Below are positions 31,873 through 36,584 of a stretch of 50,024 bases of DNA, in pieces. A program made the position numbers and the translations under genes. Below the pieces are notes generated by a model that saw only the letters and a program-made list of their open reading frames with translations, ran no database searches and was not told the DNA's origin. Source of the DNA: Dehalococcoidia bacterium (GTDB lineage: Bacteria; Chloroflexota; Dehalococcoidia; Tepidiformales; Tepidiformaceae); contig JADZEI010000091.1 of the NCBI GenBank assembly GCA_020850615.1, forward strand, positions 1 to 50,024, read 5' to 3'. How positions within the stretch are numbered: the stretch's first letter is position 1; each line of letters opens with the position of its first letter.

Positions 31873-32087
31873 TGCCGGCCACTTCCTTTCCCGGGGCGTC
31901 ACCGCGTGGCAACCCGGGTGTCTATGCGGTAACAGTACCGCCGGGGGGCCGTCTCGAACCATATGAAGCCGGTAAGAACGAGGGAAACCCGGGAATTGGC
32001 GCGCGGCGGGCCCGGCCGCATCATGGGATCGGGTGTGCAGCGGGGGTGGTGGTTCGTTCGCCGCGCCCGGCACCCGGGAGCAGCTGA

Positions 32088-32879
32088 ATGACGAAGATTG
32101 GCAAGTTCGCCCTTTCGGGCGTGATGGCACTGACCCTCTCGCTGGGCCTCGCCGCCTGCAGCGACAGTGGCGACGACGACAACGCATCCGCAGACGCCGA
32201 CGAGACCCGCACCGCGACGCAAAGCGACAGCACGAAGCCGGCCAACAACACCGCGACTTCGACCGCCACCGCGACGGCGACGACGGGCGCCGACAACTCC
32301 GACGATGGCCTGTCGCTCCTGCGCGACGCCACCGCGAACCTCGAAGAGGCGACCTACAAGCTCGTCTACGAGCTCACGGGCGAAGATGATGGCACCGGCG
32401 CCCTCGACGGCACGCTGACCATCGCCGCCGACCCGCCGCGCCAGCTCATGGGCATCTCCGGCTCGCTCGGCGGCGAAGAGGGCTCGTTCATGATCCTCAA
32501 CGATGGCACGGACAGCTTCCTCTGCGTCGATTTCGATGGGGAGCAGAGCTGCATCAAGGGCACGGGCTCCGTGACCTCCGCCATCCCCCTCCCGTCGATC
32601 GTCTCGATCGAGGACTCCCTCGACGAGATCGCCGGGGCGCCCGACGTCGAGGTGAAGGAAGTGGCCGGCCAGGAGATCGCCGGGCGCGATGGCCGCTGCT
32701 TCGAAGTGACCAGCAGCGAAGGCACCGGCCTCGTCTGCATCGATGAGGGAGACGGCATCGTCCTGCTCGTCGACGGCGAGTTCGGCGGCAGCTCCGGCAC
32801 CCTCCGCCTGCGCGAGTACACCGACAACCCGGCCGCGTCCGACTTCGAACCCCCGTATCCCGTTACGGAAATCCCCTGA
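32088..32879 (+). CDS. Lipoprotein, LppX/LprAFG (LolA-like) type
   Basis: 263 residues. The signal ends in LAAC with Cys24, followed by an acidic and Thr-rich spacer. The mature domain (about 70-263) begins LLRDATANLEEATYKLVYEL and continues with DGTLTIAADPPRQLMGISGS and two later Cys. This is the half-barrel outline of LolA/LppX-like proteins that hold lipids, but no ligand can be assigned. GGGAG lies upstream of ATG 32088. It shares a 215-bp promoter region with the divergent surface protein. Confidence 0.75.
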   Translation: MTKIGKFALSGVMALTLSLGLAACSDSGDDDNASADADETRTATQSDSTKPANNTATSTATATATTGADNSDDGLSLLRDATANLEEATYKLVYELTGEDDGTGALDGTLTIAADPPRQLMGISGSLGGEEGSFMILNDGTDSFLCVDFDGEQSCIKGTGSVTSAIPLPSIVSIEDSLDEIAGAPDVEVKEVAGQEIAGRDGRCFEVTSSEGTGLVCIDEGDGIVLLVDGEFGGSSGTLRLREYTDNPAASDFEPPYPVTEIP

Positions 32880-32929
32880 TTCATCGGCGCGCCCGGCCGG
32901 GGCCGGCCCGGGCGCGCCAGCCCGCGTGT

Positions 32930-32935
32930 TAGAGT
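32930..32935 (+). promoter_or_regulatory. TAGAGT -10 box, 7 nt before ATG (leaderless)
   Basis: TAGAGT, CCGATCG, ATG at 32943; no ribosome site in between. Confidence 0.5.
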
Positions 32936-32942
32936 CCGATCG

Positions 32943-35717
32943 ATGCCAACCCTGCGGGCGGACGAGAACCGGTACCTGCTCCAGGCGGAGCCGTGGGAAC
33001 GCGGCTCCGTGCGCCGGATCCCCGGCTGCCGCTGGACCGGCCAGGCTGGCTGGCAGTTCCCGCGCCAGCCAGCCGTCGTCCTCGCGCTCGACCGCGTCTT
33101 CGGCGAAGACGGCTGGCGCTTCAACGACCCGGCCACCGGGATCGACGTCGACGACGCCCGCGAACGCCTCCGCTACGCCGCGCGCCCGCAGGACGTGGCC
33201 GTCGTCCGCCTCGAAGGGCCACAGCTCGCCGTGCGCTGCAGCATCGCCGACAAGGAGCTCGTGAAGCTCGTCCCCGGCTACCGCTGGTCGCCGGGGACGA
33301 AGAGCTGGTACGTGGCCGCCGTGCCCATGGCCCTCGACATCCTCCAGGAGCGCTTCGGCGACCGCCTCGACGTCGACGCCGAGACGCGCACGACGATCGA
33401 GCTGCGCCGCGCCGACGAACAGGCAGCCATCGACCAGGACGCGGCGATGCGCGCCCGCATGGCCGAACCCGCGCCGCCACCGCCCGCTCCTCCCGTCGCC
33501 GAACCGCCGCCCGCCGCGCCCCCCGTGCTGGTGGAAGCCGCCCGCGAAGCCGTCGAGGCGGGGGAAGCGCTGCGCGCGGCCACACCGGCCCCGGCCGACG
33601 CCACCGCCTGGGCAATTATCGAGCGCCTTGACTCCCGCCTCGACCGGCTCGCATCCGTGCTCGAACGGCTCGAGGCGAAGCTGGCGCCCCAGGCCGCGCC
33701 CGAACCGCCGCCACCACCCGCCCCCGCGCCCCCCGAGCCCGGCCCCGAGCCGCTCGACTGGCGCGAACTGCTCCGCCAGTCCCAGGACGATGCCGCCGGC
33801 GCCCTGGACCAGGCGAACCGCACCATCCAGGCCAGCAGCGACAACGCCGTGCTGCGCGCCGTCGCCGGCGTGGCCGCCCATCGCGCCGGGCGCCTCCAGC
33901 AGGCCTACGAGCACCTCTCCCAGGCCCTCCGCAGCGACGGCGCCGTCGAGGACGCGAACCTTTCGCGCATCGCCCGCGACGCCTTCCAGTCCGTCGTCCT
34001 CCGCTTCCTGAACGACGACATCGGCCCCATCGAGCCGATCGAGAACGTCGCCTCCGTGCGGAAGCTCCTGCTTGCCGAGCTCTATGGCGGCAACGGGTTC
34101 CGCCAGGACCGCGTCAGCTCGACCGCGGCCCTCGGGACGCTCCAGCGCCTCGTCGGCGACCCCGCCCTCAAGCGCACCGCCCCCGAGCTCGCCGACTTCT
34201 GCCGCGTCGCCCACCTGGTCGCGACGGTCCGGGGCGGCGGCCGCATGGTGGCGGGACTCGTCGCCGGTGTCCTGCGCGAAGAAGGCCTCCACCCCGACGC
34301 CCAGGCACTCGCCATATTGCTCTACGCCAACGTCCTCCACGGCGTCGACACCGTGAACGACTGGGTGCACAGCTGGCCGCGCGAATTCGACCAGGAGCAG
34401 CCGCTCGAAGCCGCCCGCCTCGTCGAGCTCGCCCTCCGCCTGCTTCCGCTCGTGGACAAGGAGCTCGCGCCGCCCGCTGCGCTGTCCACGCTCGCCTGCG
34501 TCGCCCTCGCCGATGAGGTCTCGCTGCGCGACCGGCGCCAGCTCGCCGGCTACGCCCCGCGCGCCGGCGCCGTGCGCCACTACGCGGAGTTCCTCGCCCT
34601 CTACCGCGCCGCCGCCAGCGGCGAACGCGCCCCCTGGAGCCAGTTCCCCGGCTACGCCGCGATCGTCGCCAACTCCCGCCTCGACCGCTCCTGGCAGCAC
34701 CTCCAGGAGGTGTTCATGGCCGGCTCCGGCCCCGAAACGGCCGTCCGCCTGCTCGCCGACGATGCGTACCTGCCCGCGCTCAAGACCTTCGGTGTCACCG
34801 ACCCGCGCACGCAGGTCATCGACCTCCTGGACCTCCTCCGCGCCGGGTCCCGCCCGGACAACCTGCTCAACGAGCTCGGCCAGCTCATCGAGGACGGCGG
34901 CTTCGAAGGCGCGGCCCTCTTCGACCGCGACCAGCGCATCGAGGTCTACCGCGCCGCCTTCGATGCTGCCCTCGCCCAGCGCCACGACATCGACGCCCGC
35001 GACGCCTTCCACCGGCTCGTCCGCGAGCTCCAGGAGGACGGCGACTCGACGCGCGTCCGCGATCTCTGCGCCGAGGCGATGGGCAAGCTGCGCCGCCTCA
35101 AGGTGCCCGCCCTCGCCATCCTTCTCGAAACCCAGCTGGAAGAGGGCGCGGACATCGCCAGCGCGATGGACTCCCTCGCCGCCATGCTCGCGGGCAAAGA
35201 CGACGAGGACCGCCAGGACGCCGAGGCGCAGCTCCAGGGCCTCCAGTTCGCCTACCCCGAGTTCGGCGCGCGCGTCCGGGAGACGCTCACCCAGCGCGGC
35301 ACCGAGCCCGCCCTCGAACAGGAACCGAGCTTCCCCGGGCGCAGCGTCGTCATCGTCGGCGGCCGGGAGTACATGCGGAAGCGCGCGATGCCCGTGCTCG
35401 AACGGTGGGACGTGCGCGCCCAGTGGCTCACGCCCGGCGCCGCGAAGCAGGGCGACCAGGCCGTCGCGGCCGCCGCCGGCAGCTGCGACATCGTCGTCGT
35501 GAACACCGCCTGCATCGGCCACGCCGCCAGCATCCGCACCGCCGAGGCGGCCCAGAGGGCGGGCAAGGAGCCTGTCTGGCAGCACTCCAACGGCGTCGGC
35601 ACCATGCTCCAGCGCGTCCGCCGCGCGCTCGAAGGGCTCGCCGCGGCGCCGCCCGCGCCCACAGTGGCCCCCGCGAAGCGCAAGTCGCAGGCCCTGCGCA
35701 AACGCGCAGGATTCTGA
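32943..35717 (+). CDS. Large protein with two HARP-like N-terminal segments, helical repeats and a C-terminal DUF2325 domain
   Basis: 924 residues, cytosolic. Residues about 8-60 (YLLQAEPWERGSVRRIPG, then WQFPR) and 85-137 (KELVKLVPGYRWSPGTKSWY) both follow the pattern of the HARP/SMARCAL1-type substrate module that sits before SNF2 helicases: a basic run, IPG/VPG, W..xxK.W.vP. Two Pro-rich linkers flank a short coiled coil (about 205-235). About 500 residues of helix pairs follow. The end (about 798-900) is DUF2325: RSVVIVGGREYMRKR, then CDIVVVNTACIGH and WQHSNG. No helicase or nuclease motif is visible. DNA or RNA binding is inferred from the front; DUF2325 function is unknown. Leaderless and monocistronic. 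Confidence 0.75.
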   Translation: MPTLRADENRYLLQAEPWERGSVRRIPGCRWTGQAGWQFPRQPAVVLALDRVFGEDGWRFNDPATGIDVDDARERLRYAARPQDVAVVRLEGPQLAVRCSIADKELVKLVPGYRWSPGTKSWYVAAVPMALDILQERFGDRLDVDAETRTTIELRRADEQAAIDQDAAMRARMAEPAPPPPAPPVAEPPPAAPPVLVEAAREAVEAGEALRAATPAPADATAWAIIERLDSRLDRLASVLERLEAKLAPQAAPEPPPPPAPAPPEPGPEPLDWRELLRQSQDDAAGALDQANRTIQASSDNAVLRAVAGVAAHRAGRLQQAYEHLSQALRSDGAVEDANLSRIARDAFQSVVLRFLNDDIGPIEPIENVASVRKLLLAELYGGNGFRQDRVSSTAALGTLQRLVGDPALKRTAPELADFCRVAHLVATVRGGGRMVAGLVAGVLREEGLHPDAQALAILLYANVLHGVDTVNDWVHSWPREFDQEQPLEAARLVELALRLLPLVDKELAPPAALSTLACVALADEVSLRDRRQLAGYAPRAGAVRHYAEFLALYRAAASGERAPWSQFPGYAAIVANSRLDRSWQHLQEVFMAGSGPETAVRLLADDAYLPALKTFGVTDPRTQVIDLLDLLRAGSRPDNLLNELGQLIEDGGFEGAALFDRDQRIEVYRAAFDAALAQRHDIDARDAFHRLVRELQEDGDSTRVRDLCAEAMGKLRRLKVPALAILLETQLEEGADIASAMDSLAAMLAGKDDEDRQDAEAQLQGLQFAYPEFGARVRETLTQRGTEPALEQEPSFPGRSVVIVGGREYMRKRAMPVLERWDVRAQWLTPGAAKQGDQAVAAAAGSCDIVVVNTACIGHAASIRTAEAAQRAGKEPVWQHSNGVGTMLQRVRRALEGLAAAPPAPTVAPAKRKSQALRKRAGF

Positions 35718-35777
35718 CGCGAGCGTGGGGCCGGTCTGGCGTAGAATCCCGGCACACCCCACTTGCCGGAGCTCCCC

Positions 35778-36584
35778 GTGGACTACAACGCCATCCTCTA
35801 CGCCGTCGAAGACGGTGTCGCGACCATCACCCTGAACAAGCCCGAGCGGCTCAACGCCTTTGACGACGAGATGCTGCGCGAATGGTGCGACGCCATCCTC
35901 CGCGCCGACCAGGACCGCGCCGTCCGGGTCATCATCATCACCGGCTCCGGGCGCGGCTTCTGCAGCGGCATGAACGTCGCCGCCGAGGCCGCCGGCGATG
36001 GCGTGCTCCGCACCCAGGCCACCGTCGCCGACCGCCGCCACAGCCTGCGCGACCGCGTGCACCCGATCCCGCGCGCGCTCATCCAGCTCGAAAAGCCGTA
36101 CATCGCCGCGATCAACGGCGCCGCCGCCGGCGCGGGCATGGACATGGCCTCGATGGCCGACATCCGCTTCGCCGCCTCCACCGCGCGCGTGGGCATGACC
36201 TACGTCCGCATGGGCCTGATCCCCGGCGACGGCGGCTGCTGGACGCTCCCGCGCATCGTCGGCACCCAGAAGGCGCTCGACCTGATCTGGTCCGGCCGCC
36301 TGATCACCGCCCAGGAAGCGCTCGACATGGGCTACCTCATGGCCGTGTACGAACCGGACGAGCTCATGCCGAAGGTCACGGAATACGCGAAGAGCCTCGC
36401 GAAGGGCCCCGCGACCGCGCTCCAGCTCGCCAAGAAGCTCGTCTACCGCTCCCAGAACATCCCCTTCGACGAGCACCTCGATATGGCCCAGATGAGCATG
36501 TTCATCGCCCAGACCACCGACGACGCCCGCGAAGGCCCGAGGGCGTTCGTGGAAAAGCGCGAACCCCAGTTCAAGGGCTGGTAG
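35778..36584 (+). CDS. Crotonase-fold enoyl-CoA hydratase/isomerase family protein
   Basis: 268 residues. GRGFCSGMNVA and INGAAAGAGMDMA form the CoA/oxyanion site. The first catalytic Glu position is Asp and the second is Tyr; IPGDGGCWTLPR adds an Asp seen in several non-hydratase crotonases. The exact reaction is open (isomerase, hydratase on unusual substrates, or other). GTG 35778 is chosen with a GGAG site and by analogy to the crotonase at 4510; TTG 35763 is the longer option. TAGAAT at about 35745 is a -10 candidate. Confidence 0.87.
   Translation: MDYNAILYAVEDGVATITLNKPERLNAFDDEMLREWCDAILRADQDRAVRVIIITGSGRGFCSGMNVAAEAAGDGVLRTQATVADRRHSLRDRVHPIPRALIQLEKPYIAAINGAAAGAGMDMASMADIRFAASTARVGMTYVRMGLIPGDGGCWTLPRIVGTQKALDLIWSGRLITAQEALDMGYLMAVYEPDELMPKVTEYAKSLAKGPATALQLAKKLVYRSQNIPFDEHLDMAQMSMFIAQTTDDAREGPRAFVEKREPQFKGW

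Follow-up and report, generated by a model that had tools for sequence, protein, structure and literature searches.

A motor-less protein of some Dehalococcoidia combining paired HARP-like modules, an alpha-solenoid and a C-terminal DUF2325 domain

Within the 50,024-nt stretch of Dehalococcoidia DNA analysed here (the window), the gene at 32943-35717 (+ strand) encodes a protein of 924 aa in which two HARP/DUF5710-like modules are followed, in order, by a linker with a probable coiled-coil helix, an alpha-solenoid, a DUF2325 domain and a basic tail. As all of these parts belong to known superfamilies and their arrangement was not found described, the novelty of the protein lies in how familiar domains are combined: a search of the literature, itself sparse on both DUF2325 and DUF5710 (nearly nothing has been written on either), returned no described protein joining HARP-like modules to a solenoid and DUF2325, in agreement with the first-pass annotation of this DNA, which knew of no precedent. 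Work on HARP-type modules has dealt almost exclusively with their role in substrate recognition within fork-remodelling motors, and a family that keeps two of them without a motor, together with a scaffold and DUF2325, shows the module in another setting. We put at about 0.5 the probability that the gene encodes a structure-specific DNA-binding scaffold or sensor without a motor of its own, in which the solenoid would recruit partners and DUF2325 would act as a regulatory or ligand domain.

The gene, its family and its neighbours

The open frame is a protein-coding gene, because 12 full-length homologues preserve both its frame and its length and because the differences between close pairs of homologues fall mainly at third codon positions (83/88/189 and 72/65/210 changes at positions one, two and three). 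A 1525-aa open reading frame runs antisense across the gene (31899-36476, - strand); it was rejected as a gene and is an artefact of GC-rich sequence, since the gene is 74% GC (93% GC3) and the antisense frames are interrupted in most relatives. Conservation along the family alignment is highest in the modules and DUF2325, and lowest in the linker and tail.

Of 36 further genomes in its GTDB family (Chloroflexota, Dehalococcoidia), whole-genome searches recovered full-length relatives, 27-48% identical, in 12; one more genome within the class gave a partial match. With the source genome counted, the gene is present in 13/37 genomes of the GTDB family. Presence depends on lineage: one genus has the gene in five of its six genomes, another in none of eight. 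An alignment-based scan of 84,980 species returned 10 loci in Chloroflexota or unnamed bins (Tepidiforma sp., Tepidiforma flava YIM 72310, Dehalococcoidia bins, one Chloroflexi bin and Bacterium HR29) and no relative beyond those of the whole-genome search; a scan of the contig library with the single 924-aa sequence gave zero matches, where the alignment-based scan did find loci. One apparent match, in genome G132, was rejected as a chance similarity to a membrane protein. Tepidiforma flava, a cultured host, offers a route to test both the HARP modules and the widespread, functionally uncharacterised DUF2325 domain.

A gene identified from its sequence as leuC lies directly downstream on the same strand in 10 of the 13 members; a family-specific surface protein is encoded divergently upstream in eight. 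In the source genome leuC is on another contig, and an enoyl-CoA hydratase-like gene comes next after 32943-35717. In seven genomes of the same GTDB family without the gene, the family HMM detected no hidden homologue upstream of leuC. Among the neighbours of all 13 members and the open reading frames of the window there was no conserved repair, replication or defence partner, nor was any helicase a conserved neighbour.

The tandem N-terminal modules

The first module spans residues ~1-60 (32943-33122, + strand; AlphaFold2 pLDDT ~95) and the second residues ~84-148 (33192-33386, + strand). Module 2 carries an invariant motif of the form P-G-Y-R-W...W (G112, Y113, R114, W115 and W122), the signature [I/V]PG.RW....W is common to both, and the alignment of their profiles by hhalign (probability 97) marks them as genuine repeats. 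In the AlphaFold2 model of residues 1-160 (pLDDT 96), each module consists of two strands, a helix, one or two further strands and a second helix. Each of the seven best re-scored PDB matches of this model fell on the damage-recognition domain of XPB (Z 5.1-6.2, rmsd 2.0-2.4 over 53-58 residues, sequence identity 10-16%); in the Foldseek comparison with the PDB the E-values were not significant (best 0.19), and unrelated rows ranked below XPB. Structures of SMARCAL1 and UvsW were absent from the PDB fold lists, an absence that is no evidence of unrelatedness. In a viral fold library, Bacillus phage vB_BcoS-136 supplied the second-best match with its HARP protein (Foldseek E 3e-6), itself a true HARP by Pfam (E 1.2e-11, in two stretches), and lower matches comprised a DUF5710 protein and phage SF2 helicases.

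For profile comparisons, two sets were used: 1) the modules of SNF2 helicases from Mycolicibacterium, [Eubacterium] eligens and Microbacterium phage Crestdrop, whose SNF2 domains were confirmed by Pfam, except that of Mycolicibacterium TY66, which was taken from annotation; 2) a narrow, true-HARP set made of the modules of phage HARP proteins. The E-values that hhalign gives for profile pairs, which differ in kind from database E-values, were left unused; scores and probabilities are reported instead. Against the SNF2-helicase set, module 2 scored 48.6 (probability 97) and module 1 scored 35.1 (probability 93; its controls reached at most 16), where shuffled profiles gave a maximum of 14.5 and segments taken from elsewhere in the protein family a maximum of 18. 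Against the phage-HARP set, module 2 scored 25.6 (probability 67; control maximum 18) and module 1 scored 14.7, within the control range. When module 2 of the source protein was used as a query against plasmids, an Arthrobacter SNF2 protein ranked first. One Arthrobacter helicase, found through its similarity to the source protein, was excluded from the controlled test and included in another comparison.

Plain Pfam searches give a different emphasis. HARP was not detected in the full-length 924-aa protein, and among the 19 modules of the family only one matched Pfam HARP (PF07443; E 0.23, under the gathering cut-off) vs nine that matched DUF5710 (PF18974; best E 1.1e-5), which outscores HARP for most modules; module 2 of the source protein reached 17.8 bits against DUF5710, below the cut-off of 26.5, which the other matches shown likewise missed. 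Members of DUF5710 are mostly small or mobile-element proteins. Searches of PDB sequences with the module profiles returned chance matches only. The modules have the HARP fold and a homologous sequence profile, though plain Pfam places DUF5710 nearer. The HARP-like pair proposed at first reading is upheld by fold (phage HARP and XPB) and by the SNF2-module profiles; in plain Pfam its HARP match stays below threshold and DUF5710 is the better one.

Linker, solenoid and DUF2325 domain

Behind the modules, a Pro/Ala-rich linker contains an amphipathic helix at residues ~222-250 (33606-33692, + strand), defined from the family alignment, in which R235, L236 and L247 are conserved and which, judging from its sequence, probably forms a coiled coil. 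The model of residues 265-924 (mean pLDDT 86) consists of some 30 helices and then an alpha/beta domain. Residues ~273-784 (33759-35294, + strand; pLDDT mostly 80-97) form a TPR/HAT/ARM-like all-helical solenoid of about 500 residues, bearing out the helical array anticipated from the translation; fold searches of residues 265-924 returned generic TPR/HAT/ARM solenoids and receivers only, and weak TPR matches occur in some family members. Helices occupy the position that a motor would take: the 924-aa protein has no match to SNF2 or Helicase_C, as had been predicted, and Pfam, NCBIfam and PADLOC reveal neither a helicase motor nor a nuclease domain in it.

The DUF2325 domain (residues ~799-896, 35337-35630, + strand) has a receiver-like alpha/beta fold and was correctly recognised at the outset. 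Pfam places PF10087 at residues 801-890 of the source protein (E 8.2e-11, 42.4 bits vs a cut-off of 33.6) and finds it in 13/13 members of the family; the hallmark residues GG806-807 and H860 are conserved. Receiver domains are its fold matches (Z ~9-9.5; for the PmrA receiver Z 9.5, rmsd 2.6 over 99 residues). Going by the order of secondary-structure elements and not by residue alignment, the acidic pair and the phospho-acceptor of receivers appear to correspond to GG806-807 and N854, and with N854 at the acceptor position phosphorylation of DUF2325 would not be expected. The chain ends in a basic tail at residues 897-924 (35631-35714, + strand; net charge +5). This tail and DUF2325 are the only basic parts of the protein, the two modules together having a net charge of about -1 and the solenoid one of -22. 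Taken over the whole length, fold and family searches neither separated the N-terminus from HARP nor placed the entire chain in a known family.

Possible functions and related architectures

In annealing helicases the HARP domain is reported to dictate annealing activity and to be one of the domains that bind DNA specifically at junctions (PMC4035279, PMC4666394). SMARCAL1/HARP annealing helicases, and the bacterial or phage SNF2 helicases with N-terminal HARP-like modules, possess an SNF2 motor, unlike the protein described here, whose modules nonetheless match those of the bacterial and phage enzymes by profile, well above controls; the XPB damage-recognition domain is the best PDB fold match of a module but is likewise embedded in an SF2 helicase. 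From their homology to HARP, the modules are predicted most likely to bind a DNA structure; lacking a motor, the protein would then serve as sensor or scaffold. The tandem modules would recognise a DNA structure, for example a fork, a junction of single- and double-stranded DNA or distorted DNA; the coiled-coil linker would probably multimerise the protein; the solenoid may recruit at least one partner protein; and DUF2325, with its receiver-like fold, could form the regulatory or ligand-responsive end. A more specific form of this proposal, in which motor-less HARP modules sense branched or damaged DNA and pass the signal along the helical scaffold to a receiver-like DUF2325 switch, in a protein confined to some Dehalococcoidia, is tentative and on balance rather unlikely; if true, it would be a DNA-structure sensing protein of a kind not described before.

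The DNA-scaffold reading is weakened by several observations: the modules lack a net positive charge and the solenoid is acidic; no repair or replication gene is found among the neighbours; and the XPB Z-scores are modest, with HARP-type folds able to serve protein contacts. The net charge of the modules and the higher Pfam scores of DUF5710 for most of them speak for a rival reading, a regulatory or signalling adaptor working on RNA or proteins, with generic recognition modules, a client-binding TPR-like solenoid and a DUF2325 domain responsive to stress, for example oxidative stress, and with DNA structure uninvolved. The Campylobacter jejuni DUF2325 protein Cj1384, whose gene is regulated by PerR and showed the strongest induction of all under photo-oxidative stress (PMC9426514), fits such a role, but is a stand-alone Cys-rich protein of 104 aa, where in the source protein DUF2325 is a C-terminal domain. 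A TPR protein with an unrelated N-terminus (G223:C446, L076) likewise has DUF2325 as its last domain. We nevertheless regard the adaptor as improbable, if with a real chance of being correct, for the modules find their closest relatives, by fold and by profile, within DNA motors, integrase-linked frames and HARP proteins.

Less probable still is an accessory factor acting in trans, a fork-remodelling cofactor that would lend its HARP modules to a separate helicase or nuclease without one. Other SNF2 motors do gain annealing activity from fused HARP domains (PMC4035279), and HARP-like modules beside a likely partner-binding solenoid, with no motor, would suit the task, but the conserved neighbours include no helicase. 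A part in conflict with phages or mobile elements, the defence role suggested at first reading, is very improbable: patchy presence in the GTDB family and a multi-domain, sensor-like architecture would accord with it, but PADLOC-DB 2.0.0 defence models give 0 families at E <= 1 for the 924-aa protein, the plasmids, phages and viral contigs searched hold zero members of its family, and its chromosomal site beside leuC is stable.

Returning to the scaffold or sensor as the preferred reading, its architecture recurs in a 1003-aa protein of another family in the class (G058:C147, L027, 188-3196, - strand), which joins a pair of HARP-like modules to coiled coils, a helical middle region and, at the C-terminus, DUF2325 (Pfam 1.5e-4) and aligns end to end with the source family (probability 98); as the sole gene on a 3.5-kb contig, its binning is uncertain. 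HARP/DUF5710-like, TPR and DUF2325 parts recombine among proteins, and the combination in the source protein is conserved. The vB_BcoS-136 HARP protein (PF07443; AYP68137 / A0A3G3BV76) resembles the source protein in having two tandem HARP modules and no helicase, and differs in being 245 aa long, without solenoid or DUF2325; its gene lies at 922-1659, so that motor-less HARP tandems exist in phages too.

Single modules were also met elsewhere. A 121-aa protein (G309:C2, ~896280, L074) comprises one DUF5710-like module and a helical tail. On an Arthrobacter caoxuetaonis plasmid (NZ_CP099467.1, 3908-6667, L080), an SNF2-type helicase with an N-terminal HARP-like module has its ATPase region split by an intein (Pfam Intein_splicing 2.6e-18), which a relative (L081) does without. 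Finally, a HARP-like module lies in a 241-aa open frame (G331:C6, ~361331, L075) whose overlapping downstream frame resembles, by eye, a tyrosine recombinase/integrase, and the two frames may represent a frameshifted fusion.
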